Shown: in pieces, positions 28,334-50,043 of the stretch
Position numbering within the stretch: the first letter of the stretch is position 1
Layout: each line of letters starts with the position of its first letter
DNA from: Cytophagaceae bacterium
GTDB taxonomy: Bacteria; Bacteroidota; Bacteroidia; Cytophagales; Spirosomataceae
Length of the DNA stretch: 64,000 bases
Assembly (NCBI GenBank): GCA_027491315.1
Contig: JAIXWL010000004.1
Coordinates: forward strand, 310,001-374,000
Reading direction: 5' to 3'
Made by a program: the position numbers and the translations under genes
Notes under the pieces: model-generated
Database searches by the model: none
Told to the model about the DNA's origin: nothing
Seen by the model: only the letters and a program-made list of their open reading frames with translations

Positions 28334-31120
28334 TTATTCAACGATTAACTTGGCCATAGAATTTCCAAGTTGAATCAAGTAAATGCCCGTATTCAATACA
28401 TTCATTTTGGAGAATTCATACACGTTTTCGCTATTGGGTATTTGTTGGATGGTCTTGCTCAGGATTAATCTGCCTAAATTATCCATGATTTTCAGTTCCA
28501 CTTCCGAGGCTGCCCCAGCCTCCCATGTTAAGTGAACCCTGTCTTGAGTTGGATTTGGGTATAGGTGTAATGACTTCGTCTTTTCCTTTTCTATGGCTAA
28601 AATTTGAAAACTTGGAACATCCCACGGAACTAGTTGTAGATTTTTATTATTCCAAGCCTCGTTCACAAATAGGTGAAACTCCCCACTGGCTAATTTAATA
28701 GGTAGGGTTTTATTGGTGACGTCAAATGATTTACCACTGAAGTAATCATACCACTTACCTGTCACGGGAAAAGTAAATAAGACTGTTTGGGTATCGGGAC
28801 TCGAATTTGCTACCAGGGCGACTTGAGAGTTTCCTTGGCTCAACTGGATTTGCTTTACTTCATTGGCTACATCTAGGGTGAAATCTGTTGTTTGGAAAAT
28901 GGGTTTAGTCAACTTTAAATTCCCAAATTGTTGGTATACACCCAATAATTTTACCCGCTCAGTATCTTGTAAATAATTCCAAAGAAGGGGTTTTGCTCCT
29001 GTCCGGCCATTGGTATTGATAGACACATCATAAGCCAATTCGCCAAATTGCCAGATCATTTTAGGGCCTGGAATGGTATAAAACAAAGCAGCAGCCATTT
29101 TCATTCGTTCCAGTTTTTCACTGTTTGTGAATACCTTCCTAGCGGCAGTACTGGCCATTTCAACCATCAAACGCTCTTCATCATGGCTTTCGATATAATT
29201 CACTAAATGTGGCTTAGCAAATCCCCTTTTCTTGTACGATATCCAATCATAATTGGTAGGGTAGGCTTGTAAAATTTTAGCTATATCAAATTTCGAATTG
29301 GCCCAAAGCATCATTCCATCATCACTCAATTCTTTCTCTTCTGCATTTTCCGCAAAATGTTCTAATATGACATAGGCATTGCTATCATAAGATCGAATTT
29401 TATTAAATATTCTTTTCCATATTTTAACTCGGCTGGCGTCATATTTGCCCCATAAATCAACATTCGTACCTGAGTTGGTTTGGGTAAATCCTTTGGATAA
29501 ATCAAATCGAAAGCCATCCATTTTGAATTCTGTCAACCAATACTGACAGACCGTATCAACCAACCATTGGGTATGTGGGCTCTCATGATTAAAATCAAAA
29601 AATACGCTAAAAGGATGCGTGGCTGTTACATTAAAAAAGGGGCTATTGGCCGTAGGTTTAGATCCATCCCAATACATTTTGACATAAGGATTTTCTAAGT
29701 CTGCTTGATTTAACACCATATCTAAAATCACGGCAATCCCATTTTCATGGCATTTGTCAATTAAATATTTTAAATCATTTTTGGTGCCATAGGCTTTGTC
29801 AGGAGCTAAGTAAAAAATGGGATTATAACCCCAGGAATCATTTCCTGTGAACTCCATGATGGGCATTAATTCCAAGGCATTAATACCTAATTTCTTGAGA
29901 TAGGGTAGGGAATCTGCTACTGTCACATATCGTTTATCCGCGATAAAATCGCGAACTAACAATTCATAAATATGTAAATTTCGTTGATCAGGTCTAACAA
30001 AGTTCTTTACTTTCCATGGATACTCGCTTTGTTCTCTGGAAAACACCGATACGATGCCACTGCTACCACTCGGATATTTTTTTAGGTTTGGGTACGTCTT
30101 TGCCGAAATATACCCATCGTTATTCGGATCTAAAATCTTGTCAGCTAAAGGATCGGCTACCGTTAAATTTCCATCAATGTAATATTGGTAGGCAATTTCT
30201 TGGTCAGGAGGTATGCTACCCAAATCCATCCAATAGCGGTTTCCATCGCTTGTTCGATACATCAAATAGCTAGGATCTACCTTCCAATTGGAAAATTCTC
30301 CGATGGCATATACAAAACTTTTCAAAGGAGCATATAAGCTTAAAAAAACATGATCGTTGACCACGGTGATACCATCTTTAAGTCCGGCTGGACGGTCCTT
30401 TATGGTCACTTGGGGCTTTGTTAATACTTGAATGGAGTCCTTGGTACTGCTATTTCCCGCCTCTAGACTAAGGACAAATTGATACGATTTCCCCTGTTCT
30501 GCACTCAAGGTATAGCTAATATTGACGGAATCAGCAGCGCTCTGGCTCCAAATAAGCGTGGAGCCTACCTTCAATTCAGCTTTTGATTTCGCAGAAAATT
30601 GAGCCCGAATTTGGACAGTTTTGTTGGCTTCACTCAGCGTGAATTTTTCAGCTGGACTTAACCATTTAACGGCCAATGAACCGGTATAGAGGTTTAAGAC
30701 AAAATCTTCAGTTTGACTTTTGCCGTCACCACTTTTTAAAAGGAGTCCTAATTTTACAATGGGGGTACCCACAGGTACCGCATAATAGCTTCTAGGAGTG
30801 AGTTTAATCGACCACACATCGTTTCCTAGTGGGGTCATTTTCCCCTTTTCATAGGGTAGAGAGAAATTACTTTGACCATTGGGTTGAAATTGGAAAGCAC
30901 TTCCTGTTTCGCTAGATCCTGCACCAGACCATAAATACACATCAGAAGTTTTTCCTAATAGTCCACTAGCTCTGGCATCTTTGGCTTTTTTTAGGTCTAC
31001 CAGGATGTTGATTTCACTTTCTGAACTAGGAAAAAGCTCTTGGGTCGAAACTTGACCAAGAGCTTTTAGCTGCACTAAAAAAAGAAATAAAAAGAAGAAC
31101 TGCTTTTTGAATGGCATCAT
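28334..31120 (-). CDS. T9SS-sorted GH13 alpha-amylase/pullulanase-like enzyme
   Basis: 928 aa: signal peptide (MPFKKQFFFLFLFLVQLKALG), N-terminal beta-sandwich modules (about 30-235), an E-set/CBM48 domain (about 245-345, YAIGEFSNWKVDPSYL), the GH13 barrel (about 380-720) and a C-terminal T9SS sorting domain (LHLYPNPTQDRVHL ... GIYLIQLGNSMAKLIVE). Catalytic residues are Asp540 in DGFRFDLSKG, Glu587 in VILEHFAEN and Asp647 in YIESHDEERL. It should cut starch or related alpha-glucans at the cell surface or outside. It overlaps the upstream stop codon by one base (TAATG), so it is coupled to the SusA-like gene. It takes the place of the SusG lipoprotein of the classical system. Confidence 0.93.
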   Translation of the reverse strand: MMPFKKQFFFLFLFLVQLKALGQVSTQELFPSSESEINILVDLKKAKDARASGLLGKTSDVYLWSGAGSSETGSAFQFQPNGQSNFSLPYEKGKMTPLGNDVWSIKLTPRSYYAVPVGTPIVKLGLLLKSGDGKSQTEDFVLNLYTGSLAVKWLSPAEKFTLSEANKTVQIRAQFSAKSKAELKVGSTLIWSQSAADSVNISYTLSAEQGKSYQFVLSLEAGNSSTKDSIQVLTKPQVTIKDRPAGLKDGITVVNDHVFLSLYAPLKSFVYAIGEFSNWKVDPSYLMYRTSDGNRYWMDLGSIPPDQEIAYQYYIDGNLTVADPLADKILDPNNDGYISAKTYPNLKKYPSGSSGIVSVFSREQSEYPWKVKNFVRPDQRNLHIYELLVRDFIADKRYVTVADSLPYLKKLGINALELMPIMEFTGNDSWGYNPIFYLAPDKAYGTKNDLKYLIDKCHENGIAVILDMVLNQADLENPYVKMYWDGSKPTANSPFFNVTATHPFSVFFDFNHESPHTQWLVDTVCQYWLTEFKMDGFRFDLSKGFTQTNSGTNVDLWGKYDASRVKIWKRIFNKIRSYDSNAYVILEHFAENAEEKELSDDGMMLWANSKFDIAKILQAYPTNYDWISYKKRGFAKPHLVNYIESHDEERLMVEMASTAARKVFTNSEKLERMKMAAALFYTIPGPKMIWQFGELAYDVSINTNGRTGAKPLLWNYLQDTERVKLLGVYQQFGNLKLTKPIFQTTDFTLDVANEVKQIQLSQGNSQVALVANSSPDTQTVLFTFPVTGKWYDYFSGKSFDVTNKTLPIKLASGEFHLFVNEAWNNKNLQLVPWDVPSFQILAIEKEKTKSLHLYPNPTQDRVHLTWEAGAASEVELKIMDNLGRLILSKTIQQIPNSENVYEFSKMNVLNTGIYLIQLGNSMAKLIVE

Positions 31121-32964
31121 TATAGGACCTCCACAATGAGGGCTGATTTAGGATCTACCTTGATGTAATTCCCTAATTTAGAAATTTGTCCATTAATTAC
31201 ATTCTTAAGCTGAGCATTGGCTGGTAAGATTTCTTTATACAATCCTGGATCAACCTGACTCTCCTGTGCATTTTTATTGACAATAACCATGACTTTTGAT
31301 TTTTCGGTATATCGAAAATAGGTGTAAATGCCATTTTTAGGCGCAAAATGCAACATTTTACCTTGGGTTACTGCCTCATTGCCTTTTCTCCAATTCAGTA
31401 ATTTAGCCAGAAATTCTTGCGTGTTCTTTTCCTTGGAATTGAGTTGATTTCCCGATACGGCATCGCGAGTGTCCCCCGGCCAGCCACCTAAAAAATCTCC
31501 TCTTATTTCACCATGTTCATTACTCTTTGGATTGGCGAAATTGATTTCTGCCCCGTAATAAATCTGTGGAATACCTCTTAAGGTACTAATTAAAGAAAGG
31601 CCTATTTTATATAAATCGGCATCTTCTTTGACTTGCGTATAAAAACGACTCATATCATGGTTATCCAAGAAGATAACTAGGTTATATGGGTTGGCATAAA
31701 TCAGGTCATACGATAACACAGAATATAGTTTTAGTAAGCCTTGATTCCATGATTCAGGTTCTGTTAAAGCCTCAAAAATGGCATTTTGTAGCGGGAAATC
31801 CATTAAACTAGGTAAGCCAGAACGGTAGCCATCTGGATTGATTTTACCTTTTTGCCAATAGGATGGGATGATGGGATTTAGGGACCATTCTTCACCCACC
31901 ATATTAAACTTAGGGTATTCACTGGAAATAGCTAATGTCCAAGCATTCGAAAAGCTCTTTTCTGAATAGGGATAGGTGTCTATTCGTAATCCTCCCAGGC
32001 CTGCATACTCAATCCACCAAATGGTGTTCTGAATGATATATTTGGCTAAGAATGGGTTATTTTGATTCATGTCAGGCATCGTGGGTACAAACCAACCATC
32101 CACTAAACCTTTTGTATCTGCTAAAGAACGGTGAGGGTCTTGTTGTGCCTCACGGTGATGATTCGTAGAGGTAAATGTAGCACCATGATTAATCCAATCT
32201 TTGAACGGTAAATCCTTCATCCAATAATGTCCGCTACCAATATGATTCAATACGATATCAGATATGATTTTGATTCCACGCTTATTTGCCTCGGTACATA
32301 ATTCTTTGAATTTCTCATTACTTCCAAATCGAGGATCTATTTTATAATGATTGGTAATGGAATACCCATGATAGCTTTGAACTTGTTGATCATTTTCCAA
32401 TAAGGGCATATTCCAAATAGCGGTATATCCCATTTTTTTAATGTAGTCCAAACGGTCAATAATCCCCTGTATATCGCCTCCATGTCGAGTAAATAATTTG
32501 GAACGGTCCACTTCCTTCTCCAGCAGGGCAGGATGGGTATCATTAGTTTGATCTCCATTGGCAAAGCGGTCTGGGGTAATCAGGTATATAACATCTTTGG
32601 AACTAAAACTTTCTCGGTTTTGGCTACCAGCCACACGAGATTGTAGGGAATAGGGGATAGTAGCAAGTACTTTACCCTCTTTCATGATTTGAAGCGGATA
32701 CTCACCTGGCTTGGCTGATTTTTCTATCAGAAAATCCACAAACAGGTAATTGTCGCTATCTGCCGCATGGGTTTTCACCACTTTAAAACCAGGTCGTAAG
32801 GATTTCACCTGAGCCCCCTTAATTTGAGTTCCTCTTAAAACCAATTGAAGATTAGGATTTTTCATTTCTACCCACCAATTCATTGGTTCTATTTGTATCG
32901 ATTTCTCTTGGGAAAACGAAGTAAAATGAAGTGTAAGTAAAAGTAGATATAAGAAGTTTTTCAT
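31120..32964 (-). CDS. susA: Periplasmic neopullulanase / GH13 alpha-amylase, SusA-like
   Basis: 614 aa with signal peptide MKNFLYLLLLTLHFTSFSQ. An N-terminal cyclomaltodextrinase-type domain (about 20-115) precedes the barrel: VIYLITPDRFANGD, GYTAIWNMPLLEND, SYHGYSITNHYKIDPRFGS, nucleophile Asp329 in GLGGLRIDTYPY, acid/base Glu358 in MVGEEW and Asp437 in FLDNHDMSRF. This matches the neopullulanases that break imported maltooligosaccharides in the periplasm. It follows susE by about 215 bp containing a hairpin and overlaps the next GH13 gene. Confidence 0.93.
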   Translation of the reverse strand: MKNFLYLLLLTLHFTSFSQEKSIQIEPMNWWVEMKNPNLQLVLRGTQIKGAQVKSLRPGFKVVKTHAADSDNYLFVDFLIEKSAKPGEYPLQIMKEGKVLATIPYSLQSRVAGSQNRESFSSKDVIYLITPDRFANGDQTNDTHPALLEKEVDRSKLFTRHGGDIQGIIDRLDYIKKMGYTAIWNMPLLENDQQVQSYHGYSITNHYKIDPRFGSNEKFKELCTEANKRGIKIISDIVLNHIGSGHYWMKDLPFKDWINHGATFTSTNHHREAQQDPHRSLADTKGLVDGWFVPTMPDMNQNNPFLAKYIIQNTIWWIEYAGLGGLRIDTYPYSEKSFSNAWTLAISSEYPKFNMVGEEWSLNPIIPSYWQKGKINPDGYRSGLPSLMDFPLQNAIFEALTEPESWNQGLLKLYSVLSYDLIYANPYNLVIFLDNHDMSRFYTQVKEDADLYKIGLSLISTLRGIPQIYYGAEINFANPKSNEHGEIRGDFLGGWPGDTRDAVSGNQLNSKEKNTQEFLAKLLNWRKGNEAVTQGKMLHFAPKNGIYTYFRYTEKSKVMVIVNKNAQESQVDPGLYKEILPANAQLKNVINGQISKLGNYIKVDPKSALIVEVL

Positions 32965-33180: not shown

Positions 33181-34497
33181 TTAGTTTTTAATCAACGTGT
33201 AGGTAGGGGCAGCTGGATTTCTGAAGTCCAACTTAACATTGTACACACCCGCTGAACCTACAGCTATGTTAGCTCCGCCCGACTCTAATGATCCATTGGC
33301 ACCATCATCTCCGTAATTCACACCCCAGTCATCATTCAATCTGAATTTAACTTCACCGGCGCTTAATGAGATGTTATTTAGATACCAAAGGCCTTCTGTA
33401 CCAAAATCAGGTCTAAATTTCATGTCTGGTCCACCCCAGCCGCTCGCTGTGGCACTTCCAACAATACCCCAAACTTTGAAGGTTTCAATTTTTACCTTCA
33501 ACTCTTTTTGGTTGAAAGTCACCAAATAAAATCCATCTGCTGCAATGGCTATGTTAGCACCACCTGATTCTAATGAACCATTCGCTCCATCATCTCCATA
33601 ATTTAGCCCCCAGTCATTATTAAATCGAATTTTGATTTCACCCTTCACTAATTTGGCAATGGCTCTCCATTGGTCAGTGGCAGGATCATACCAGAAAGGC
33701 ACATCTGGTCCACCCCAGCCATTTGGAGTCCCCGAACCCACGATACCCCAAGTATATGGAACCATGGTGAAGGTGTTCTTAGTCAAATCTATGGTTACTT
33801 TGTAAGTGCCAGCGGCATTAACCTTAATATTGTCGCCATTAACTTTCAATGTACCTGAACCACCATCTCCAATATTATAGTCCCATTTATTATCAGTTCT
33901 GAATTTAATTTCACCAACCGCTAGGTCCACATAAGCCACAAATACATTCGCTATGTCGGTCTTGTAAAATGGCAAATCTGGCCCATTCCAGCCGCCTGGA
34001 GTGGCACTTCCCACAACGCCCCAATTGGTAGTTAGGTCTAACTTATCCAAAAACGGAGTAATGGTAATACTAGCTACTGGAGAGATAAATGAAGTTGTTG
34101 GTCCAATTACCGATTGAAGTTTGAAATCAACTCCAGACGCAACACCCGCTTTAAGTCCTAGCTGTAATAAAATGGGGTTTAATTCGCCCACTTTGAACGT
34201 TTTTTTCAAATCACCACCTACGGCAATCGCCACAGATTTAGAAAAATCGCCACCTTTTTTATCAATTAAAATGGTGTAAGTAGCTGCGGCATTAAAACCG
34301 TAGTCTGGCTTTGGCCAGCTGATGGTTACCGCCTCATTCGCAACTTGCTCTTTAATCAAAACAATGGATGATTTAGACAAGGTGATATTTGGACCGGCAG
34401 TAGCGGTCAAAATAGGTTGTATGAATTCTTTTTCACAAGACAACAAGCCTAAGCTGAAGACTAGAAGTGAAAATAGTTTGAACAATGATTTTTTCAT
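33181..34497 (-). CDS. susE: SusE/SusF-like outer-membrane starch-binding lipoprotein
   Basis: 438 aa. Lipobox LGLLSCEKEF (Cys21). Residues about 35-150 are the SusE N-terminal Ig-like domain (ITLSKSSIVL, VTISWPKPDYGFNAAATYTI). Three C-terminal binding modules follow, each starting WGVVGS/WGIVGS with GWxGPDxPF or GWGGPDMKF and containing a KFR/KIRFNxDW strand. Modules 2 and 3 share NYGDDGANGSLESGGANIA exactly, a sign of recent duplication. SusE/F proteins hold starch on the cell surface. It lies 30 bp downstream of susD in the operon. Confidence 0.93.
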   Translation of the reverse strand: MKKSLFKLFSLLVFSLGLLSCEKEFIQPILTATAGPNITLSKSSIVLIKEQVANEAVTISWPKPDYGFNAAATYTILIDKKGGDFSKSVAIAVGGDLKKTFKVGELNPILLQLGLKAGVASGVDFKLQSVIGPTTSFISPVASITITPFLDKLDLTTNWGVVGSATPGGWNGPDLPFYKTDIANVFVAYVDLAVGEIKFRTDNKWDYNIGDGGSGTLKVNGDNIKVNAAGTYKVTIDLTKNTFTMVPYTWGIVGSGTPNGWGGPDVPFWYDPATDQWRAIAKLVKGEIKIRFNNDWGLNYGDDGANGSLESGGANIAIAADGFYLVTFNQKELKVKIETFKVWGIVGSATASGWGGPDMKFRPDFGTEGLWYLNNISLSAGEVKFRLNDDWGVNYGDDGANGSLESGGANIAVGSAGVYNVKLDFRNPAAPTYTLIKN

Positions 34498-34527: not shown

Positions 34528-36111
34528 TTAATAGCCTGCATTTTGAACTAAATTCGGATTCGCCACGATATCAGAAGATGGAATAGGGAACAATTTCAGA
34601 TTATCTGAAACTCCTGCACCCGATTTAGATCCACCTTTCCATGCCCAAAGGTAACTTGAGCCAGTAAACATTTTAAAGCGAATTAAATCCGTTCTTCTGT
34701 GACATTCCCAATACAATTCTCTTCCTCTTTCCTTGATGATTAAATCTAAGTTTAAGGTGCTTACATTGCCACCAGTACCATTGTAGGCACGATTACGTAA
34801 AGCATTCACATATTGTAAAGCGCTTGTCAAATCTCCACCCGATCCACCACGTAAAACGGCTTCAGCATACATCAAATAGACATCTGCCAAACGGAACATT
34901 GGGAAGTCGGTATCCGGGAAGTTTCCTTCTGAATCAGAACCTTTAACACCTGAAGAAGTCACATTTTTGTATTTTGTGATGGCATATCCATCATTGAATG
35001 ATGAAATATCCGCTACCTCCTTGTTTTGTCCATCGGTAAAAAACATAGCTCTAGTATCTGTTTTTCCCGTTTTGTCATCAAAATGATCCACAAATTGCTG
35101 CGTCGTTCTTAAACCACCCCAGCCACCATTGATACCAAATTCGGCAGGGTTCATTTTACCACCTACGGGAGCATGCACGATGAAGGTCATACCACCCCAA
35201 GTTTTTGTCTTCGTTCCATCAAAAGCAATCGGGAAAATGATTTCTGCCGATTTATGATTGTCTGCTAAAAACAAATTTTGGTATTTTGATTCTAGGGCAT
35301 AACCTGCGCTAATTACCTTTTTTGCTGAAGTAATGGCCTCTGTATATTTTCCAGAATTGATGTATACTTCGGCATTTAAATATAGCTTGGTTAATAAGGT
35401 CCAAGCAGCTGCTTTATCAGCACGGGCATATTCATTCTTTCTTGGCTCTGCCAAATCGCCTTCGATGGTCTTCAGTTCTGATTCGATGTAAGCAAACAAA
35501 TCAGCTTTTGAAATTTGTTTTGGTAAAAATGAACCTACGGCATCTTTCTCCGTTACAAATGGTACAGAACCAAACATGTCTAATGCATGATAATAGCTTA
35601 AGGCTCTTAAAAAACGAGCTTCTGCACGGTACATTTTAATTTCTGGAGAAGTAATTCCTCTAGATGCTAATTTCTCATCTGAAGTTTCGCGGATGTATTC
35701 ATTGCAAATTCCAATTTGGTAATAAATACGGTTGTACATCGCGGTGATAAACTCATTTCCAGAAGTCCAGGTCATGGTATGGTAACTCGGTAAACTTCCG
35801 TCATTCCAACCAATAACTGCTTCGTCAGTTGGTAATTCTTGAGCCTTAAAATATTGACGTAAATAGGTTGAAAAACCTTCGTCAATTCCAGAAATATCTG
35901 GTTTTCCAGCGGGACCTTGTTGACCCGAAACAGCCAATCCTGCATATAATTTGGCCAATAAAGGTTTGTAATTAGCTGGATCTTTGAATACGGTAGCTGA
36001 GGTTACCTCAATGAATGGGACTCTGTTGAGATCTCCCGTACAAGAGGCCATGATACTTAAGATGATACTTAAGCTCAAGCCTTTAGCAAATGTGATGTAT
36101 GTTGATTTCAT
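34528..36111 (-). CDS. susD: SusD-like starch-binding outer-membrane lipoprotein
   Basis: 527 aa RagB/SusD family. Signal and lipobox SIIMASCTG-like (Cys24 in SIMASCTGDLNRVPF). The TPR-rich helical core shows AEARFLRALSYYHALDMFGS and AAAWTLLTKLYLNAEVYI, and the family C-terminal block FPMFRLADVYLMYAEAVL, LIIKERGRELYWECHRRTDL and LFPIPSSDIVANPNLVQN. It caps the SusC transporter and captures oligosaccharide. It follows susC by 18 bp. Confidence 0.95.
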   Translation of the reverse strand: MKSTYITFAKGLSLSIILSIMASCTGDLNRVPFIEVTSATVFKDPANYKPLLAKLYAGLAVSGQQGPAGKPDISGIDEGFSTYLRQYFKAQELPTDEAVIGWNDGSLPSYHTMTWTSGNEFITAMYNRIYYQIGICNEYIRETSDEKLASRGITSPEIKMYRAEARFLRALSYYHALDMFGSVPFVTEKDAVGSFLPKQISKADLFAYIESELKTIEGDLAEPRKNEYARADKAAAWTLLTKLYLNAEVYINSGKYTEAITSAKKVISAGYALESKYQNLFLADNHKSAEIIFPIAFDGTKTKTWGGMTFIVHAPVGGKMNPAEFGINGGWGGLRTTQQFVDHFDDKTGKTDTRAMFFTDGQNKEVADISSFNDGYAITKYKNVTSSGVKGSDSEGNFPDTDFPMFRLADVYLMYAEAVLRGGSGGDLTSALQYVNALRNRAYNGTGGNVSTLNLDLIIKERGRELYWECHRRTDLIRFKMFTGSSYLWAWKGGSKSGAGVSDNLKLFPIPSSDIVANPNLVQNAGY

Positions 36112-36129: not shown

Positions 36130-39096
36130 TTAAAAATTCACTTTTAAGCCCAATGAAACAGTGCGTGGTCTTGGATACATGTTGTTATCGATTCCACCTC
36201 CAACTTCAGGGTCTAGGCCTTTATATTTTGTCAGGATAAACGCATTTTGAATATTCAAAGACAAATTTGCGTTGAATTTTTTAGCCTGTAAAAGTCTGTT
36301 CAAATTATAACCAAAGTTGATATTATCTACACGTAAAAATGAAGCATTTTGAATGTAATAATCGGAGAAGTATTGCGTGTTATTGAAGTTTGTTTCATAA
36401 ACATTGGGTACTAGGTTCGATAAAAAGTTATTACCACCTGTAGCCGCACGATAAATACCATTATTGGAATTAATGTTGTTGTACATGTAATTTCCAATAT
36501 TGGCTCTCAATACAAAGCCAAATGAAAAGTCCTTAATTTGTAGATTGGACGAAGCTCCTAAGAAATACTTGGAATTAGGGGATTCAAAGCGATAACGGTC
36601 ATCTGAAGAGATTTTGCCATCATTATTACGGTCTACATAAAGTCCTTCAAGGGGCTTTCCACTAGGATCATACACCTGCTGGTACACATAAAATGTATAA
36701 GGCGCATATCCCAAGGAGTGAATCTGAATGGTGTTACCAACCCCGCCTGAAATTCCACCAACTAATATACCTTGGTAGCTAGGATCTGGGACTTTCGTTA
36801 AATTGGTGATGTTACTCTGATTGTAGGTGGCATTAACACCAAAATCCCAATTTACCGTAGTTGTATGAATTGGGTTGAAATTTAAGGTCACTTCAACTCC
36901 CTTATTTTCTAAATTACCCACATTGGTTAAGATTTGGTTGGTTAAGTTAGAGCCAGCAGGTACTGGGATGACAGACAATAAATCTTTGGTGTCTTTCTGA
37001 TATACATCGATTGAACCAGTGATTCCAATCTTTTTGAATCCAAAATCCAAGCCAATGTTTTTGGTGGTAGTTTGTTCCCATTTAATATTGGCATCATATC
37101 CCTCAGGTCTCAAGGTATTTGAAAATGTGCTTCCTAATTGGTACTGAGCATTAGGTTCAGAAATAGTATAGCGAGCCAAATAAGGATAATCACTAAATAC
37201 ATCTTGCTGACCCGTTACACCCCAACCCAAACGTAATTTTAAATCGGAAATAAGCTCTGAATTTTTAAATTCCTCTGAGATTTTCCAGGCAGCGGCTGCA
37301 CTTGGGAAAACACCCCAACGATTTTCTGGAGAGAATCTTGATGAACCATCATTACGCAAGGTAAAGGTTAATAAATACTTGTCGTTTAATGAATAGTTAG
37401 CTCTACCATAAAAAGAAACTAGCGTATTTTGTGTTTTATAGTAGGTATTATTATAAACCGTTCCAGCAATATTCTTATCCAAATCCGTATTGTCTCGTAA
37501 GAAATCTTGGTAAGAATAACCACCCATGACATCTATTTTATGCATACCAATGCTTTTCACATAGTTTAAATAAAACTCAAAGGTTTTATTATCCTTGGTT
37601 TGAGAATAGGTGCCATTTTTTCCACCACGGTCATAGGAATTAGCGATTCCGGCAGGAACAAAAATGCTTCCTTCTGAAGAAGACTTATCAATCGCCAGGT
37701 TGGCATTGGCTCTTAATTCAGGTAGAAAAGGCATTTTATAATCAAAAACGGCATTGGCAATCGTTCTCTTAACGGTCGATTTGTCATTTTGTAGTTCTAA
37801 TAGAGCTACCGGGTTTTTCGGAGCCAAAGAGTTAGGTTTCTTGGTGGCAGGATCTAACCATTCAAAATATCCACCAAATTCTGAGCCTTGAATGGATTGA
37901 GTAGGATCAAATCCTACAGCCGTTCCGATAGCTCCTTGATTAGCAAAAATATTATTGATGATAGATGACTTTAGATTTAAATCAACCTTCAACGAGTTAT
38001 TAAAAAAGCTAGGACTTAAACCAATGGCCGTAGAAATACGGTCCATGTTGGATGTTTTTAAGATACCGTTTTGGTTCAAATAACCCACCGATGCACGAAC
38101 CGGCATATTTTTAATGGAACCAGTAATGCTCACATTATTATCGATCGAGATGGCATTGCGGTAAATTTCTTTTTGCCAATCCGTAGATGACTTGCCTAAC
38201 AAAGCCTTTTGAGCAGCGCTTCCTTTTGCCGAAATCATCGAGGTGAAATCAGCGGCAGATAACACATCTAGGTAAGAACGAACTTGTGCTGAGGAGGCTA
38301 CTGAGCTTACAGAAACCTTAATGTCATCTCCTTTTTTACCTTTCTTGGTCGTGATTAAAATGACACCATTGGAGGCTCTTGATCCATAGATAGCGGTGGC
38401 AGAAGCATCTTTCAGTACGTTGAAAGACTCAATGTCATTCGGGTTGATGAATGACAAGGCATTAGCTGCACCCGAGATGCCGTTATTGTCAAGAGGTACA
38501 CCATCGATAACAATTAAAGGGTCATTATTGGCATTTAAAGAAGAACCACCACGAATTCGGATGGTTGAACCTGCACCTGGTGCACCGCCATTGGAGGTAA
38601 TTTGAACTCCGGCTACTTTACCAGCTACTAATTGGTCAGGGGAAACAATATTTCCTTTTTGAAAATCAACGGAGGAGATTGAAACCACAGAACCCGTCAA
38701 ATCTTTCTTTTTCTGTGATCCATAACCAATCACCACCACCTCATTCAGGGATTGTGAATCAGATTCCAACTGGATGCTAAAAGAAGTTTGGTTTCCGACG
38801 CTTACCTCTTTAGTGATGTATCCTATGGAGGAGATAATCAACACATTGTTAGAGGAAACATTTGCTAGGGTGAACTGACCCTTTGCATCAGCTGAAACAC
38901 CTTTGCTGGTGCCTTTAACCGCAACTGAAGCTCCGGGTATGGGGCCTTCCTTGGAATTAACAGTACCACTAATGGTCTGCTGAGCAATGACCGAAAAAAC
39001 GGAAAAAATAACCAATGATAAAGTCAAGAAAATACTCTTTCCTTTCCCTTGGTTAAATCCCTCGATCCAGCTAGTAAATTTAGCTTTCATAGACAT
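36130..39096 (-). CDS. susC: SusC-like TonB-dependent outer-membrane transporter
   Basis: 988 aa. After the signal region (SIFLTLSLVIFSVFSVIAQ) come a carboxypeptidase-D-like domain (ISGTVNSKEGPIPGASVAVK), the TonB box/plug (LNEVVVIGYGSQKKKDLTGS, TIRIRGGSSLNANNDPLIVI, ATAIYGSRASNGVILITTKK) and the beta-barrel ending RPRTVSLGLKVNF. It has no STN domain, so control should not use FecR/sigma but the divergent AraC-type sensor. It imports maltooligosaccharides with energy from TonB. It is first gene of the operon susC-susD-susE-susA-GH13. Confidence 0.95.
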   Translation of the reverse strand: MSMKAKFTSWIEGFNQGKGKSIFLTLSLVIFSVFSVIAQQTISGTVNSKEGPIPGASVAVKGTSKGVSADAKGQFTLANVSSNNVLIISSIGYITKEVSVGNQTSFSIQLESDSQSLNEVVVIGYGSQKKKDLTGSVVSISSVDFQKGNIVSPDQLVAGKVAGVQITSNGGAPGAGSTIRIRGGSSLNANNDPLIVIDGVPLDNNGISGAANALSFINPNDIESFNVLKDASATAIYGSRASNGVILITTKKGKKGDDIKVSVSSVASSAQVRSYLDVLSAADFTSMISAKGSAAQKALLGKSSTDWQKEIYRNAISIDNNVSITGSIKNMPVRASVGYLNQNGILKTSNMDRISTAIGLSPSFFNNSLKVDLNLKSSIINNIFANQGAIGTAVGFDPTQSIQGSEFGGYFEWLDPATKKPNSLAPKNPVALLELQNDKSTVKRTIANAVFDYKMPFLPELRANANLAIDKSSSEGSIFVPAGIANSYDRGGKNGTYSQTKDNKTFEFYLNYVKSIGMHKIDVMGGYSYQDFLRDNTDLDKNIAGTVYNNTYYKTQNTLVSFYGRANYSLNDKYLLTFTLRNDGSSRFSPENRWGVFPSAAAAWKISEEFKNSELISDLKLRLGWGVTGQQDVFSDYPYLARYTISEPNAQYQLGSTFSNTLRPEGYDANIKWEQTTTKNIGLDFGFKKIGITGSIDVYQKDTKDLLSVIPVPAGSNLTNQILTNVGNLENKGVEVTLNFNPIHTTTVNWDFGVNATYNQSNITNLTKVPDPSYQGILVGGISGGVGNTIQIHSLGYAPYTFYVYQQVYDPSGKPLEGLYVDRNNDGKISSDDRYRFESPNSKYFLGASSNLQIKDFSFGFVLRANIGNYMYNNINSNNGIYRAATGGNNFLSNLVPNVYETNFNNTQYFSDYYIQNASFLRVDNINFGYNLNRLLQAKKFNANLSLNIQNAFILTKYKGLDPEVGGGIDNNMYPRPRTVSLGLKVNF

Positions 39097-39198
39097 GATT
39101 AAAATTTGTTAAAAAATATTTTTTTAAAAACTCAAAATTAAAGTACTAAAGCATTAGATTCGCCCCACTTTAATTCCTGATAAAAAATAATGAATTAG

Positions 39199-39237
39199 TA
39201 CAATTGTCTGTAAATGAATAAATTACAATTAATTGTA
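39199..39237. promoter_or_regulatory. Paired TACAATT boxes between susC and its divergent regulator
   Basis: A perfect 14-bp palindrome TACAATTAATTGTA (39224-39237) is preceded 25 bp away by TACAATTGT (39199-39207), which holds the 8-bp palindrome ACAATTGT. They sit in the 197-bp gap between the susC and regulator starts. A repeated box at this place is what an AraC-type activator site would look like; binding is inferred. Confidence 0.45.
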
Positions 39238-39293
39238 CGAATCATTTTATAAAGTGGAACAACAATAAAAAGGTACCCGATAATAAATTTGCC

Positions 39294-41228
39294 ATGATAG
39301 GCTCTCCATTTAAATACGCTTTGCTTAGGTTAACCTTGCTTCCTTTACTGATGGTCCTATGTCACATGACCTTGGCCCAGCATAAGTTGGAGTTAATAGC
39401 CCCTACACAAAAATTATTACCAAAAGGAGACTTTTACCTAGCGGCTGATTTTAATAACTGGGACCCGGGAGACCCTAGGTTTCAATTCAAAAAAAAATCA
39501 AATGGAAACTATGAAGTAAGCATACCTGATAGTGTACGTACTTTTGAATATAAAATTACCCAAGGCACTTGGCATCTGGTAGAAGGAACCAAAGACGGAA
39601 ATGTCAGTGGCAATAGGAAGTTTGAAATCAAGTCTCAAGATACCTCCAAAATTCACATCATTCAATTATTAGGGTGGGAGAAGAAAGCTACCTACCGCAT
39701 TATCGTAAATAAAATTCCAGCGGCTACTCCGTTTGATGCCAAATTGTATGTCACGGGGAATTTCAATAATTGGAATCCTAAAGATGAAAACTACTTATTA
39801 ATTCAACATGCGGATGGTTCGTATAGAACTACCGTTCTTTCTGAGTTGACTGAAATTCAATACAAAATTACCCGGGGAAATTGGGCTTCTGTGGAATGTT
39901 ATAGCAATGGTAAAGCCCGGCCCAATAGGAAAATAGAAAGGGCAGAAAAGTTAAAATGGAATCCTAGGGATATTGAGCATAAAATAAATATCGAGGTGGA
40001 AAACTGGGAAGACCTCACAGGGATCTTCAATTTTTTCGACTTATACAGTCTTTTTTTATTGTTTGCCAGTTTTAGTGGAATTTTATTGATGATTGCTATT
40101 CCAACCATTCAAAATTCTAACTGGTTAGCTAACCGTTGGTTGATTTCATTAATAGGCGTCATTTCCCTTACCCTCTTATTGAAAATTGTGTCGGCTGATC
40201 GAAATATAGCTCAGGAATTTCCCAAGTTATTGCTTTTGCCTGATTTTATCGTTTTTGCATTTGCTCCTTTATATCATTTATACATTGAAAAGTTATTGTT
40301 TAAATCGAGCGATTTTAAAATTAAATGGCGGTGGATTTACCTGCCAAGTTTACTTCAGGCTTTGATCTATTTACCCTATTTTAATTTAGATTATAATACG
40401 TTCCGATATGCTCAGCTAAACCATGAGCCCTCTTTCCAAATTCTATTTTTGTTAATTGGGTCAGCGGGGATTATTTGGAATTTGATTCAGTGGAATAAAT
40501 TTCGAAAGATCTTAGATATATACCTCGAAAAAAGTAAAATAAGTTCATCCTTTGAGGAGAATTTGAGTTATTTAAGTATCACCCAAATCATCTATTTAGC
40601 CTGCATCATTTTAGGCTTTTTAGCCTTGATTTTATATTTGCTAGGCTTTGTCATCGATGAGGACTTAACCTTATTAAGTAGCCAGATTGTGGATCTAATT
40701 TGGGTGGTATTTGCTTCTTTACCTTTCTTCTTGGGCTATTATGCCATACACCAGCCTGAGATTTTCAAAATTTCGCAGAAGCATAATATTTTAGGATCTG
40801 AAAGTGAAATAGACCTAAATACACCCATTCAAAGAGAAAATACCTATGTGCCGGGTAATAAGGAAGTTGTTAAAGATGAACTGGCCGAGAGAATTGTTGA
40901 AATAATGGTGCAATCAAAACCTTATTTGAATCCCAAATTGACCTTAAATGATTTGGCAAATCAGTTGAATGTTTCGCCACATGTGATGTCAAAAACCTTG
41001 AATGATTCCTTTCAGAAAAACTTTTTTGACTTCATTAATACGTATAGGACAGAGGCTTTTAAGGAAAAATTAGATGATCCGAAGTTTCAAAATTACACCT
41101 TTTTAGCGGTGGCCTTTGAGGCTGGATTTAATTCCAAAACTGCTTTTAATAGATCCTTTAAGCGGGTAACAGGGCAGTCGCCAAGTGAATATTTGCAAAG
41201 CATTAACCAATCTGAAAATATGATTTAG
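39294..41228 (+). CDS. Starch-sensor regulator: two periplasmic CBM-like modules, seven membrane spans, AraC output
   Basis: 644 aa. A signal peptide (LLRLTLLPLLMVLCHMTLAQ) leads to two about 95-aa beta-sandwich modules (about 30-115 and 130-225), each with FNNWDPGD or FNNWNPKD and a YKIT(Q/R)GxW strand, as in starch-binding CBM20/CBM48 domains. Seven hydrophobic helices follow (about 250-485), then a cytoplasmic AraC domain (about 540-640; LTLNDLANQLNVSPHVMSKTL, FEAGFNSKTAFNRSFKRVTG). The topology places sugar binding outside and DNA binding inside. It is divergent from the sus operon, where B. thetaiotaomicron has SusR, so it should switch the operon on in response to starch fragments. The gene at 5360 has the same membrane-AraC core without the modules. 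Confidence 0.9.
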   Translation: MIGSPFKYALLRLTLLPLLMVLCHMTLAQHKLELIAPTQKLLPKGDFYLAADFNNWDPGDPRFQFKKKSNGNYEVSIPDSVRTFEYKITQGTWHLVEGTKDGNVSGNRKFEIKSQDTSKIHIIQLLGWEKKATYRIIVNKIPAATPFDAKLYVTGNFNNWNPKDENYLLIQHADGSYRTTVLSELTEIQYKITRGNWASVECYSNGKARPNRKIERAEKLKWNPRDIEHKINIEVENWEDLTGIFNFFDLYSLFLLFASFSGILLMIAIPTIQNSNWLANRWLISLIGVISLTLLLKIVSADRNIAQEFPKLLLLPDFIVFAFAPLYHLYIEKLLFKSSDFKIKWRWIYLPSLLQALIYLPYFNLDYNTFRYAQLNHEPSFQILFLLIGSAGIIWNLIQWNKFRKILDIYLEKSKISSSFEENLSYLSITQIIYLACIILGFLALILYLLGFVIDEDLTLLSSQIVDLIWVVFASLPFFLGYYAIHQPEIFKISQKHNILGSESEIDLNTPIQRENTYVPGNKEVVKDELAERIVEIMVQSKPYLNPKLTLNDLANQLNVSPHVMSKTLNDSFQKNFFDFINTYRTEAFKEKLDDPKFQNYTFLAVAFEAGFNSKTAFNRSFKRVTGQSPSEYLQSINQSENMI

Positions 41229-42021: not shown

Positions 42022-43407
42022 TTAGTCTTCTAAATTACTCTTAACAGGAATCATTCCTGCTTTATGTTTTCTTACTAATTCATTTATCTCCTCTACTTTT
42101 TTCTCATTTTTACTTGCAATGTCATATTGCTCAGAGGGATCTATCGATAAATTGAATAATTGAGGTTTTTCTAGTTTTTCTATCTTTTCAGGATATCCAA
42201 TGGGATTATTTTTTAAATAGTATAATTTGTAGTCTCCCAATCTTGCCGCAAATAAATCAGTGGCATGGTAAAAAAACATTTCATTTCTTGGATTGACATC
42301 TTTATTCTGAACCATTAAGGGACTTAGGTCGTAGCCATCTGTTTTAACTTGATTAGGTATTTCAATTTTCGCTAAACTGCATAGAGTAGGTAAAATATCT
42401 AATGTACTTCCCATCTTCATTTCAACTTTAGGTTTAATATTGCTAGGAGCCCAAACAATAAATGGCACACGCATACCTCCTTCATAGCTGGTACCTTTAG
42501 CTCCGAACAATAAACCCGAAGAACCTCCTTGCTCTTTGAATAATTTCCATGGGCCATTGTCAGAAGTAAAGATGACATAGGTATTTTCATCTAGGTGTAA
42601 TTCTTTTAACGTTTTCATTACTTGTCCAACGCTCCAATCTAATTCTTCAATAACATCTCCATATAATCCTCTGATGCTTTTGTCTTTGAAATTTTTTCCA
42701 GCAAAAAGAGGAATATGAGGCATTGAATGCGCTAAATACAAAAAGAAAGATTTATCCTTATTTCTTTTAATGAAGTCAACAGACTCCTCGGTATATCTTT
42801 GTGTAATGGTATTTTGGTTTGCAGGTCTTTCTATAATTTCATTATTACGCATAAGAGGAACATTGAAATCCTCAATTTCTGGTGTAAATAATTTTTCAAA
42901 TGTAGATCCAGCTTTTCGATCCATATCATTGGAATAAGGTATCCCAAAATAGTAATCAAATCCATTATTATTGGGAGCAAATTGTTTTAGATGCCCCAAG
43001 TGCCATTTACCCACTAATGCAGTTTGGTAATTATTCATTTTTAGAATTTCGGCAATGGTTAATTCTGCCTCTGGTAGTCCACCTTTTGAATCCGGAAATA
43101 AAACCCTTCGTTTATAACTTTCCATCCCTATCCGTACAGGTAGTTTACCTGTCATCAATGCAGCTCTAGACGGAGTACAAACATTAGAAGCCACGTAAAA
43201 ATTGGTCCATTTTTGGCCTTCATAAGCCATTCTATCTAAATTTGGGGTCTTAATTACCGGATTTCCGTAGGTGCCTAAATCTCCATAACCTAAATCATCC
43301 GTATAAATAACGATGAAGTTGGGTTTTCTTTTCTTTGACGACTGCGCGTTCAATTGAAAAAAAGTGAACAAAAGAACAAGGGGTATAAAAAATAGTTTAA
43401 GTTTCAT
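42022..43407 (-). CDS. Secreted sulfatase (S1 family)
   Basis: 461 aa with signal peptide MKLKLFFIPLVLLFTFFQLN. Metal site IYTDDLGYGDLG, formylglycine motif CTPSR (Cys77), LVGKWHLGH, LAHSMPHIPLF and IFTSDNGPW are all intact, with AKGTSYEGGMRVPFI late in the sequence. The pattern is that of exo-acting or cerebroside/arylsulfatase A-like bacterial enzymes. It follows a second sulfatase by 12 bp, so they form a pair downstream of the STN-type SusC/SusD genes and probably act on the same sulfated glycan. Confidence 0.92.
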   Translation of the reverse strand: MKLKLFFIPLVLLFTFFQLNAQSSKKRKPNFIVIYTDDLGYGDLGTYGNPVIKTPNLDRMAYEGQKWTNFYVASNVCTPSRAALMTGKLPVRIGMESYKRRVLFPDSKGGLPEAELTIAEILKMNNYQTALVGKWHLGHLKQFAPNNNGFDYYFGIPYSNDMDRKAGSTFEKLFTPEIEDFNVPLMRNNEIIERPANQNTITQRYTEESVDFIKRNKDKSFFLYLAHSMPHIPLFAGKNFKDKSIRGLYGDVIEELDWSVGQVMKTLKELHLDENTYVIFTSDNGPWKLFKEQGGSSGLLFGAKGTSYEGGMRVPFIVWAPSNIKPKVEMKMGSTLDILPTLCSLAKIEIPNQVKTDGYDLSPLMVQNKDVNPRNEMFFYHATDLFAARLGDYKLYYLKNNPIGYPEKIEKLEKPQLFNLSIDPSEQYDIASKNEKKVEEINELVRKHKAGMIPVKSNLED

Positions 43408-43419
43408 AAAACGTTATTT

Positions 43420-44760
43420 TTAAGGTTTTTGCCAAGGGACTCTTCCGCCTTCTTGAATGAAAGTCATTAATAAATTGTTTAATTTTTTGACCATTTCTGG
43501 ATTCGAATTAACCAGATTGTTTTTCTCCAGTGGGTCATTTTTTAGATGGTAAAGTTCATAAGGTTGAAAAGGAGAATTTTGTAAAAGTTTCCAATCACCC
43601 AATCTGACAGCATGATAGGCTTTTCCACCGTATTGAATACCACCTTCTCTGCGCGTGAAATATAAAGGTCGCTCAGTTTGTTTTACATCTTTATTTAAAA
43701 GAACTGAAGCAAAACTCCTTCCTTCGACTTTATGGGGCATAGGTATGCCTACTAATTCTAACATTGTTGGAAAAATATCCATCGTCAAATTCACCTGAAC
43801 AGAGCTGGAAGCTTTTTCAATTTTTTTAGGCCAAGTTATGACTGTCGGTACTCGGATTCCACCTTCATACATACTCTGCTTTCCATCTCTTAATTCTCCG
43901 TTATTGGCCAAATCTGGTAGATGTCCTCCATTGTCAGAAGTGAAAATAATGATGGTGTTTTCATATTGACCAGATTTCTTAAGCGCATCAATTACTTGGC
44001 CAATTCCATCATCCAAATGTTCAATTAATGCAACCAACTTAGCTCTCTTTTCATTTATACCGGGGTTTCTAGCAATAACTTTATCTAACCATGCTTGAGG
44101 TGGTTGTACCGGAAAATGAGGAGCATTATAAGCAAGATAGAGGAAAAATGGATTTTTACTTTGACTTTGTTTTTGAATATATTCTATAGACCATTGGGTA
44201 AATAAATCTGTTGCATGTCCTTCGGGTTCAATTTTTTTATTGTTTAAACGCATGAAGTTTATACCGTGGCGAAGGTGAGTCCAATAATCTTCCATCATAT
44301 CTTCTAACCAGCCATGGAAATAATCAAAGCCTTTTTCATTGGGTAGATTGGGTGATTCTAAACCTAAATTCCACTTACCAATGTGTGCGGTCTGATACCC
44401 TGCTTTTTTTAAAACCTTAGGTAGTAATATCGTACTTGGATTCAAATAGCCCCAATTATTCTCTTTATTATATCTAATTAAGCCAGGCACTCCAACAAAA
44501 TCTGGATAACGACCAGACATAAGTGAGGCTCTAGTAGGAGCGCAAACGGGAGAATTTGAATAGAAATAATCAAACTTCATTCCGTCTTTCCTTAAGTTGT
44601 CAATATTGGGTGTTTTTACGTCTTTATTGTCGTAATAAGAAACATCATGATAACCGAGGTCGTCAGTTAGTATAATTAAAATATTAGGCTTTTTATTTTG
44701 TGCCAGTAACAAACATCCACTCAAACACCAAACCAAAACAGTAAAAACGCTCTTTTTCAT
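43420..44760 (-). CDS. Secreted sulfatase (S1 family) with CAPTR active site
   Basis: 446 aa with signal peptide MKKSVFTVLVWCLSGCLLLAQ. Metal site ILTDDLGYHDV, formylglycine motif CAPTR (Cys73; threonine where serine is usual, an accepted variant of CxPxR), IGKWNLG (Asn in place of the usual His in GKWHLG), and IFTSDNGGH. The Asn change near the sulfate pocket is worth note. It is the first of the paired sulfatases, 167 bp and a terminator-like hairpin after susD. Confidence 0.9.
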   Translation of the reverse strand: MKKSVFTVLVWCLSGCLLLAQNKKPNILIILTDDLGYHDVSYYDNKDVKTPNIDNLRKDGMKFDYFYSNSPVCAPTRASLMSGRYPDFVGVPGLIRYNKENNWGYLNPSTILLPKVLKKAGYQTAHIGKWNLGLESPNLPNEKGFDYFHGWLEDMMEDYWTHLRHGINFMRLNNKKIEPEGHATDLFTQWSIEYIQKQSQSKNPFFLYLAYNAPHFPVQPPQAWLDKVIARNPGINEKRAKLVALIEHLDDGIGQVIDALKKSGQYENTIIIFTSDNGGHLPDLANNGELRDGKQSMYEGGIRVPTVITWPKKIEKASSSVQVNLTMDIFPTMLELVGIPMPHKVEGRSFASVLLNKDVKQTERPLYFTRREGGIQYGGKAYHAVRLGDWKLLQNSPFQPYELYHLKNDPLEKNNLVNSNPEMVKKLNNLLMTFIQEGGRVPWQKP

Positions 44761-44841
44761 TTGTTTTAAATTTAAATAAACAAAACAGATTGTATCAAAT
44801 AGTTTCTAATGGTACTTCAAAATAAACCATAGAAATTTGAA

Positions 44842-44878
44842 CAAAAATCGGGAGGGTCAGATTGACTCCTCCCGATAA
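44842..44878 (-). terminator. Terminator between SusD and the sulfatases
   Basis: ATCGGGAGG (44847-44855) pairs with CCTCCCGAT (44868-44876), with an inner GTCA/TGAC stem, and is followed on the minus strand by TTTTTGT. It is a strong intrinsic terminator 50 bp after the SusD stop, so the two sulfatases need read-through or their own promoter. Confidence 0.85.
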
Positions 44879-44927
44879 ATTTAACCATCAACTTGTACTT
44901 ATAATAAGATTTTTTCTGATTGATGTT

Positions 44928-46481: not shown

Positions 46482-46485
46482 GATC

Positions 46486-49400: not shown

Positions 49401-49902
49401 TTTGAGTACCTTTAGTAGTACCTTTTAGGCTAATGTTTACGCCGGGCATTCCTAGGCCTGTTTCATCTTTGACCTTTCCAGATATGGTTCTCTCATCAAC
49501 TTGTACAGAATTTTGGGATGAAAGGTGAGAACCACCTTCATTGCTATTTCTAAGAATTATTCGATTTTCTTTAACTAAATATTCAACTGAGATGGGAAGC
49601 AATAATTCTTGTAATACTTGGTCGAGTCTTTTTTTAGTCACATTGATATTGACCTTTTGAGACATATTAATATTGCTTGAACTATAAACAAACTTGACAT
49701 TTGCTTGCTTTTCAATAGTTAAGAGCACTTTTTTTATCTCTGTTTTTTCCATTTGTAGGGAAACAGGTTGGTTTAGCTCAAATTGACTATATGCAGAGTG
49801 AGCATAAGAAAAAGTGCAAAAAACCAGACAGAGTACTAGTTGTTGTATTGTGATTTTCATAGTAATCCAAAACAATTTTGGAAACAGGTGGGATTTGTTC
49901 AT
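46486..49902 (-). CDS. SusC/RagA TonB-dependent transporter with STN signalling domain
   Basis: 1138 aa. The start at 49902 gives a long leader; an internal ATG at 49860 (MKITIQQLVLCLVFCTF) starts a signal peptide directly, so the start is uncertain. Residues about 45-115 are an STN (secretin/TonB N-terminal) domain (SLQMEKTEIKKVLLTIEKQA), then the carboxypeptidase-D-like domain (ISGKVKDETGLGMPGVNISL), plug (LDEVVVVGYGSTQKVNLTGS, IRVRGWGTLNNANPLIIVDG) and barrel to RIVTLGINLNF. The STN domain signals to the FecR protein and ECF sigma encoded upstream on the same strand. Confidence 0.94.
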   Translation of the reverse strand: MNKSHLFPKLFWITMKITIQQLVLCLVFCTFSYAHSAYSQFELNQPVSLQMEKTEIKKVLLTIEKQANVKFVYSSSNINMSQKVNINVTKKRLDQVLQELLLPISVEYLVKENRIILRNSNEGGSHLSSQNSVQVDERTISGKVKDETGLGMPGVNISLKGTTKGTQTDGNGNFSISVPNENAVLLISFVGYASQEIGVRDKNQIEISLKPDVTALDEVVVVGYGSTQKVNLTGSISTIKFDEKINNRPLTNSSQALGGTASGVWVSQNSGKPGSDGSQIRVRGWGTLNNANPLIIVDGVEGTFEQLNPSDIESISVLKDAASAAIFGSKAANGVVLITTKMGKNNEKMQVNVNSYVGVQTLGMRYKTINNSADNMELSNRALVNDGASPLYSTDLINAFRTGTDNFKYPNTNWFSELFKPAKIQEHNVSVRGGSAQTSTFLSFNYLNQEGMVANTNSQRFSLRANLDSKINNWLKISGRVSYINRLSKEPYADITYGSLGRVFDMLSGAAPFIAPYTRDGRFGSVQATDKNGALLYDNRNPLIDAANGQTSTQENLLSINATAEVNFTKHLSVKTTFAANGTWNLVDRYNKSVFGYTDAGIETITKNFNREGLEINRGTISGFNTNLFTTINYSNTFNKVHEVSAIAGTQIESNKIQTLYARRSSPPKEGLTQVDAGTSGIQGSGNMNALRILSYFGRVNYAFNQKYLFEANFRADASSRFKEGNRWGYFPGFSAGWRVSDEDFLKNSDVISNLKLRASWGRLGNQNISDYWPYLTIINQNNALSYNYGGKLAPGAAITNLIDENITWEKTATTDFGIEMSFFRNKISIEADYFRKKTDDILVQLPIPLVLGGLNSPFENKGEMTNNGVEVILNYNNQVSDPNKLGFSIGLNATYIDNMVTKFGTSRSPDQLYLIREGYSFRELYGYKVIGIYQSDREATEHMFANGFKPKAGNLKFEDVNNDGKLGFEDKQSIGNTIPKVTFGISPSFKFKGFDLNILMQGILGVNMFNQNNFTNLTYENRVIGERWLNSWTPTNTNTNIPMARFDNSWNSSQSSFWVNKVDFVKLKNIQLGYSVPEKFSTKYGLKKAYIYVNAQNMYTLVNNDFDGYDPEKNTFDSSTNQYPVPRIVTLGINLNF

Positions 49903-49971
49903 ACTTTTACGTAGTTAAGGTTTTACGATCATTAACTAAGTTTTACCAATTTTTTTTGGTAGAACCTTTAG

Positions 49972-50007: not shown

Positions 50008-50043
50008 TACAATTCAGGAGCTATTCATAAATTAATTTGATGT

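Follow-up and report, generated by a model that had tools for sequence, protein, structure and literature searches.

A CBM-7TM-AraC protein divergent from a sus-type operon

The window analyzed here is a 64,000-nucleotide stretch of DNA from a Cytophagaceae bacterium (GenBank assembly GCA_027491315.1, contig JAIXWL010000004.1, positions 310,001 to 374,000), a freshwater bacterium with a 2.9-Mb genome. A single open frame of 644 codons on its plus strand (39294 to 41228) encodes a candidate regulator in which two putative carbohydrate-binding modules (CBMs), seven predicted transmembrane (7TM) segments and an AraC-type helix-turn-helix (HTH) domain are joined in one chain. A gap of 197 bp separates the gene from susC, which belongs to a divergent sus-type operon on the opposite strand with genes for glycoside hydrolase family 13 (GH13) enzymes, one carrying a type IX secretion system (T9SS) sorting tail. 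The features of the regulator and the operon are as follows.

39294..41228, plus strand: CBM-CBM-7TM-AraC regulator, 644 amino acids (open reading frame, Pfam, hydropathy scan)
39294..39377, plus strand: predicted signal peptide, residues 1-28 (hydropathy alone)
39381..39686, plus strand: putative CBM48/AMPK-like module 1, residues 30-131 (W56, K87, W93, N107)
39687..40028, plus strand: putative CBM48/AMPK-like module 2, residues 132-245 (W160, K191, W197, N211)
40053..40721, plus strand: seven hydrophobic segments, residues 254-476, predicted N-out/C-in (hydropathy, loop charges)
40953..41198, plus strand: AraC-type HTH (HTH_18), residues 554-635 (Pfam)
36130..39096, minus strand: SusC-type TonB-dependent transporter (family searches)
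34528..36111, minus strand: SusD-type lipoprotein (family searches)
33181..34497, minus strand: SusE/SusF-type lipoprotein (Pfam)
31120..32964, minus strand: GH13 enzyme of cyclomaltodextrinase/neopullulanase type (family searches)
28334..31120, minus strand: GH13 enzyme with T9SS sorting tail (family searches)

The initial annotation of this DNA had described a signal peptide, two FNNW/YKIT-GxW modules, seven hydrophobic helices and an AraC domain in one 644-residue protein, and the open frame, the hydropathy scan and Pfam bear this out. As read from the translation, FNNW occurs at residues 53-56 and 157-160, YKITQGTW at 86-93 and YKITRGNW at 190-197. The hydropathy scan gave a signal-type segment at residues 9-27 and then seven segments within 254-476, one of them weak (347-365, score 1.08). 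By its HTH the protein is of the AraC/XylS type, with HTH_18 at 55.9 bits (cut-off 33.6) and HTH_AraC at 43.9 bits (cut-off 26.6), and no histidine kinase or receiver domain was found in it among Pfam and NCBIfam matches. The regulator differs from three orthologues by a nonsynonymous distance (dN) of 0.099-0.114; synonymous distances (dS) are mostly saturated, so dN/dS ratios are unusable and only the low dN itself is used here. The neighboring operon had been called complete, and susC, susD, susE/F and two GH13 genes do lie divergent from the regulator; the word goes too far in that no GH97 (SusB) was found among the eight proteins searched.

In 21 aligned fusions, loops 3 and 5 carry means of 3.86 and 4.24 lysine plus arginine residues and loops 4 and 6 carry 1.33 and 0.33, while loops 1 and 2 are alike (1.71 and 1.81). 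These charges fit an N-out/C-in orientation. Given the signal peptide and a Gram-negative cell, the modules would therefore be periplasmic and the HTH cytoplasmic. The cytoplasmic side predicted for the AraC domain agrees with the initial annotation, whose proposal of glucan sensing "outside" should accordingly be read as sensing in the periplasm and not at the cell exterior.

Evidence on the modules comes from their relatives and from the residues that they share. The fusion protein has a sub-threshold X25 match (E 0.007), and module 2 alone matched only DUF6707 (E 0.097) in Pfam. Among 119 module pieces, 49 were aligned with module 2 of the window and 15 with module 1. Of 50 single modules compared with Pfam at E ≤ 0.1, AMPK1_CBM was matched by 29 (best 8.6e-07), X25 by 20, CBM_48 by 11 and CBM_20 by 4. 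Three multi-module relatives pass the AMPK1_CBM cut-off of 26.8 bits as whole proteins (L013, 41.8; L009, 33.2; L057, 49.6). When the 50-module profile was compared with the PDB, the best match was an alpha-amylase entry (8dl1, E 0.0003), followed by AMPK-beta glycogen-binding domains (E 0.006), with FNNW aligned on FNNW and GxW on GQW; weaker matches included branching enzymes and, at E 0.22, a T9SS plug protein.

In AMPK, Trp100 and Trp133 are described as the key glucan-binding tryptophans, and in plant PTST starch binding was lost once both equivalents were changed (PMC4339375; here and below, comparisons with the literature draw on parts of the cited papers). The two AMPK tryptophans aligned with the module pair are 33 residues apart in the beta-1 chain, the same spacing as between Trp100 and Trp133. 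The two aromatic platform residues, which the initial annotation had set beforehand as a test, are present in both modules, as W56/W93 and W160/W197, together with K87/N107 and K191/N211. In the glucan site of such domains a lysine and an asparagine also take part in binding. All 21 aligned fusions carry W160, K191, W197 and N211 in module 2 without exception; in 16 aligned first modules the tryptophans are kept in 16 and 15, the lysine in 16 and the asparagine in 10. The likeness to CBM48, the AMPK-beta glycogen-binding domain and X25 thus lies in the FNNW ... YKxxxGxW pattern with its conserved W, K, W and N; the difference is that the window's modules are divergent and that their family extends to esterases and to lipoprotein-like proteins with three or five copies.

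Two such three-module lipoprotein-like proteins (L010, 1162-3558; L013, 230-2076) lie beside a LytTR-type response regulator gene, and a histidine kinase-like gene is also present at the L010 locus (names from translations). Possibly the same sensor module serves there in a separate two-component system. A WED motif after module 2 was considered as a coupling motif and rejected, as similar ends occur on module proteins without a membrane domain.

Distribution and origin of the fusion

Within the genus the regulator occurs in 6 of 37 genomes, and an orthologous SusD (≥93%) is found in the same 6 genomes of 38, all other SusD matches being at ≤49%. A strong match of full-length type was obtained in at least 7 of 395 genomes of the class, a lower bound because at most three candidates were scored per genome. 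In a scan of named genomes, 80 of 113 relatives were kept; carriers among the matches listed include Emticicia, Dyadobacter, Fibrisoma, Spirosoma, Runella, Hymenobacter, Chryseolinea, Daejeonella, a Maribacter metagenome-assembled genome (MAG), a Saprospiraceae MAG and others. Altogether 29 fusion loci were examined, from groups that include Cytophagales, Sphingobacteriales, Flavobacteriaceae and Saprospiraceae. The survey for the same fusion beside susC, which the initial annotation had proposed, thus found it to recur, with sus-type or GH13 genes adjacent or near at 24 of the 29 loci. Names for neighbor genes came mostly from blastp against 13 proteins of the window, and 20 neighboring frames were also searched in Pfam. 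In the Hymenobacter group a single-module form lies directly before a GH13 cyclomaltodextrinase gene (L028, L047, L048, L050 and L054). One locus of Aquirufa type (L037) comes from a MAG labeled Chryseobacterium gleum and groups inside Aquirufa in the tree; this bin is probably mislabeled or mixed.

A tree of the membrane and AraC part, from which the modules were excluded, was built from 28 fusions and 28 CBM-less proteins (L049 was left out, and L055 forms a long branch). All 28 fusion rows fell on one side of a branch with support 99/97, present in 200 of 200 bootstrap trees. With the fusions in a single clade, one acquisition of the module is enough to explain them, and module 1 would have been gained or lost at a later point. 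The architecture is more than chance: 29 loci are alike, 28 of them fall in a single clade, and dN is low.

The CBM-less proteins of Bacteroidota share with the fusions a membrane part of the same kind and the AraC domain, and differ in having no ectodomain modules, in their separate tree branches and, in the host, in having no SusC/SusD nearby. A hydropathy scan found ten such proteins with four to seven segments in the host genome, and in the 11-18 kb of surroundings fetched, SusC/SusD matches were near 0 of the 10 (for the paralogue in L131 a contig end is close by). One of these paralogues (399 residues) lies in the window itself at 5360-6559, with sulfatase-like genes nearby. No study of CBM-less multi-helix AraC proteins was found in the literature searched. 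Near-identical CBM-less proteins of this kind occur at L059 (9512-10645) and L064 (1705-2838), both from MAGs labeled Pseudomonadota (Propionivibrio and Accumulibacter), which may reflect transfer or contamination.

Receptors of the 7TMR-DISM type likewise combine an extracytoplasmic module, seven helices and varied cytoplasmic outputs. The 7TMR-type membrane part suggested by the initial annotation was not borne out, because the 7TM part has no detectable sequence relation to them. It matched no Pfam family, and 15 of its homologues together matched six Pfam families, with one member each and a best E of 0.0023. PF07695 had 0 matches in the host genome, comparison with 7TMR-DISM by hhalign gave a probability of 0.5% (with shallow profiles of low sensitivity), and the AraC model gave no hit among the proteins at the 24 7TMR-DISM loci sampled. 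Membership in 7TMR-DISM was rejected on these results.

A putative operator at the susC promoter

When the gap between susC and the regulator was aligned for seven Aquirufa-type loci, two invariant blocks emerged, and the same pattern lies upstream in other genera. In the direction of susC, the first and more distal block is an inverted repeat that follows the pattern GTnCCAyTTTnnnAAAnnGGnAC, and the second is a proximal half-site, AAAGTGGRRCG, located 76-96 nt downstream of the right arm of the repeat. In the window they are found together with TAnnTTTG, which we take to be a -7-type promoter element, at the following positions.

39237..39262, no strand assigned: putative distal inverted-repeat operator with one strong and one weak arm (the strong arm ranks third)
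39158..39172, minus strand: putative proximal operator half-site, TAAAGTGGGGCGAAT (ranked first across the 64 kb by the model from other genera)
39133..39140, minus strand: TAnnTTTG (-7-type) element of susC (the proximal half-site starts 32 nt before it)

The ranks come from a 15-mer half-site model that was trained on 11 loci of other genera and scanned over both strands of the window. Its best position was 39172 on the minus strand, which is the proximal half-site, and its third was 39250 on the plus strand, within the distal repeat. When each genus was held out in turn, the top match of the locus fell in the gap between regulator and target at 10 of 15 loci, against 0.24 expected; these were the window, L040, L041, L042, L043, L044, L046, L047, L052 and L116. 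Among the 19 loci with a site, TAnnTTTG begins 32-33 nt after the start of the proximal half-site in 14 (four of them Aquirufa), and in those 14 of 19 about 20 nt lie between the end of the half-site and the -7-type element downstream of it.

The position of the motif points to susC as its target. In nine loci of other genera (L040-L044, L046, L052, L116 and L117) the regulator is co-directional with susC, whereas in Aquirufa it is inverted with the orientation of the motif and its spacing to susC unchanged. Because the motif stays fixed relative to susC despite this inversion, susC is the likely target. Other arrangements of the sites were also seen: in Emticicia (L040) the site pair precedes a 371-residue frame, which in turn precedes susC; in Daejeonella (L045) the gap holds no site, and a pair lies before a susC 9 kb off, where the half-site ranks second in the locus; and L051 has a variant site alone, before its susC. 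No convincing site was seen in the divergent loci L053, L055, L118, L119 and L120 or in the cut locus L049, and for three related SusC genes with DUF6377 neighbors the motif was not among the four best matches in the upstream region. In Aquirufa the regulator may also regulate itself, as the distal repeat ends about 30 bp before its start. A bipartite operator shared by loci of several genera, as predicted from these alignments, is new here.

Proposed mechanism and place among known regulators

On the architecture, clade, gene context, conserved residues and common operator computed here, we consider it likely that the protein is a membrane-tethered one-component activator of the adjacent alpha-glucan sus-type operon. 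Maltooligosaccharides would enter the periplasm through SusC/SusD and bind there to the CBM48/AMPK-like modules, the membrane-proximal one above all. Binding would rearrange the ectodomain, and the change would pass through the seven helices to the cytoplasmic AraC HTH, which probably acts as a dimer. The HTH, as a dimer or a pair of dimers, would occupy both the distal repeat and the proximal half-site and recruit RNA polymerase to the susC promoter, turning on susC-D-E/F-GH13-GH13. Because no kinase or receiver domain was found, a phosphorylation step is not proposed. The membrane-tethered one-component glucan sensor of the initial annotation thus gains in plausibility from the glucan-site residues, the context and the operator; as a concept it is not new, since SusR works likewise.

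Several observations weigh against this reading. The link to the CBM20/48 identity given in the initial annotation comes through the relatives of the modules, as neither of the window's two modules reaches a Pfam CBM cut-off; the fold assignment has weak-to-moderate profile matches as its basis, and residues 130-183 also give a sub-threshold T9SS plug match (18.7 bits, cut-off 100). The AMPK1_CBM scores of L013 and L009 are sums over whole proteins, a lone stretch passing in L057 alone. Putative esterases, which make up 7 of the 10 module proteins searched, carry this module too, with the same residues, so residue conservation by itself does not prove alpha-glucan binding. Alpha-glucan neighbors are missing at five of the 29 loci (L049, L053, L055, L119 and L120), of which three are cut by contig ends (L049 inside the gene, L053 on a 5-kb contig, L055 soon after the gene). 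Among CBM-less paralogues, two of the host (L130) lie within about 3-4 kb of a weakly GH13-like frame, and one in L027 (4831-6036) has a SusC-like gene some 2 kb away, which makes proximity to SusC weak evidence by itself. On the operator side, the held-out rank was 2 in L117, 3 in L048 and 4 in L054, and the gap site was not among the top four of L028 and L050; the P value of 5e-16 for the held-out result is a guide only, the loci being related and the motif having first been spotted by eye. Two further ideas were rejected: the exact composite motif as a sign that a genome of the class carries the regulator (6 of 395 genomes match, 1 of the 7 known carriers among them, with 9 matches in the reversed control), and a wider host regulon (8 exact sites, 6 in the reversed control); around the six exact sites outside the gap, no window sus gene was matched (3 kb each, 16 kb for three).

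Some of these points favor an alternative in which the sus operon is regulated through the operator and the modules do not bind the inducer, being structural or dimerising or recognizing another glycan or a partner, with the signal sensed elsewhere, for example in the 7TM part. The CBM-less multi-helix relatives presumably sense something without CBMs, and the module recurs on esterases and multi-module lipoprotein-like proteins to which no ligand is assigned. We regard this as unlikely: the putative glucan-contact residues are invariant in the membrane-proximal module, and the CBM-bearing clade has alpha-glucan genes at 24 of 29 loci, whereas the CBM-less host paralogues are beside susC/D in 0 of 10.

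Still less probable is ligand-triggered proteolysis, in which the HTH would be cut off at the linker between helix 7 and the HTH (about residues 481-535) and act as a soluble factor. This linker is strongly variable in length and sequence, with a dN above that of the HTH in 3 of 3 orthologue pairs; variable linkers are often uncleaved, however, and QPEIFK, the segment that follows helix 7, is unchanged across the seven proteins compared. Protease genes were seen at 2 of 29 loci (an M14 peptidase at L049 and an S49 peptidase at L117), in neighborhoods not surveyed for proteases. A repressor or a sensor of starch shortage is very improbable even though sequence by itself does not tell the sign of regulation, because the half-site ending about 20 nt upstream of the -7-type element is at the usual place of an AraC-type activator. 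The starch-activated activator remains the reading that we prefer.

Three classes of regulators of polysaccharide utilization loci (PULs) are named in Bacteroidota: SusR-like proteins, hybrid two-component systems (HTCSs) and extracytoplasmic function (ECF) sigma/anti-sigma factors (PMC6874557, PMC10316084). SusR of the gut bacterium Bacteroides is described as sitting in the membrane, with its sensor in the periplasm and its DNA-binding part in the cytoplasm; the latter is said to lack significant similarity to other factors, and the predicted operators are direct repeats with a center-to-center distance of 67 or 77 bp (PMC3878776). SusR senses maltose in the periplasm and probably longer maltooligosaccharides as well (PMC11633381). 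By prediction, the window protein shares with SusR (BT3705) the membrane anchor, the periplasmic sensor, the cytoplasmic DNA-binding domain and the control of a sus operon. A further likeness is the direct orientation of sites, which holds here for the proximal half-site and, 76-96 nt from it, the right distal arm. It differs in its AraC-type HTH_18 in place of the unusual DNA-binding domain of SusR, and the parts of the SusR description used for this comparison mention neither a CBM nor seven helices. An HTCS is likewise a single membrane protein with a periplasmic glycan sensor and a cytoplasmic AraC output that controls a PUL, through a phosphorylation cascade (PMC6874557). The window protein has no histidine kinase or receiver and does have CBM48-like modules and seven helices, and on the missing kinase and receiver domains HTCS membership was rejected. 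As predicted here, it works like SusR, yet lacks one tested feature of the SusR-like class and one of the HTCS class. No description of a CBM-7TM-AraC regulator was found in the literature searched, whose coverage leaves out most subscription papers.

The suggestion that the fusion replaces SusR is plausible, on indirect grounds. DUF6377 proteins may be the SusR family and thus candidate SusR relatives outside Bacteroides, and DUF6377 has no match in the host genome; the equation of DUF6377 with SusR is our own, and a search of one Bacteroidales genome gave no DUF6377 match. Of 21 carrier genomes, host included, 4 have a DUF6377 match above the cut-off, 12 have weak matches alone and 5, the host among them, have none. 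Five of the seven above-cut-off matches were fetched with their surroundings, and the proteins are 530-554 residues long. At three of these five loci (Chryseolinea, Hymenobacter BT18 and its relative G047) DUF6377 is beside SusC/SusD, and in Daejeonella it is beside GH13 genes and the fusion regulator; by locus, L164, L166, L167 and L168 have SusC/SusD or GH13, and a Chryseolinea locus (L165) is beside neither. The absence of DUF6377 from the host fits a replacement of SusR but stops short of proof, because both proteins occur together in Daejeonella, Chryseolinea and the Hymenobacter pair.

The window also appears to hold PUL control of another known class. Within 42022-53810, a second SusC/SusD pair (44928-49902) has three sulfatase-like genes around it (42022-43407, 43420-44760 and 52287-53810) and anti-sigma-like (50044-51054) and ECF sigma-like (51065-51622) genes directly upstream (names from translations). 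At 23727-26195 an 822-residue protein has no Pfam match at E 0.1.

The fusions make up a conserved family of receptors that could well represent a further class of PUL regulator. That this class is one of seven-helix regulators, in which alpha-glucan on CBM48-like modules acts through the 7TM bundle on a membrane-held AraC domain at a bipartite operator without phosphorylation, has in our judgment slightly better than an even chance. Such a family would join the three named classes and span several orders, and it would be a possible case of the job of SusR having been taken by a different protein. Its predicted sensor site, operator and promoter spacing are directly testable. For the multi-helix AraC proteins, the fusion also offers a starting point, in the form of a likely ligand, a target and a DNA motif. 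If the proposal is true, the CBM-less multi-helix AraC proteins of Bacteroidota would form a family of 7TM one-component receptors, and this family of 7TM AraC receptors would take its ligand specificity from exchangeable ectodomains.

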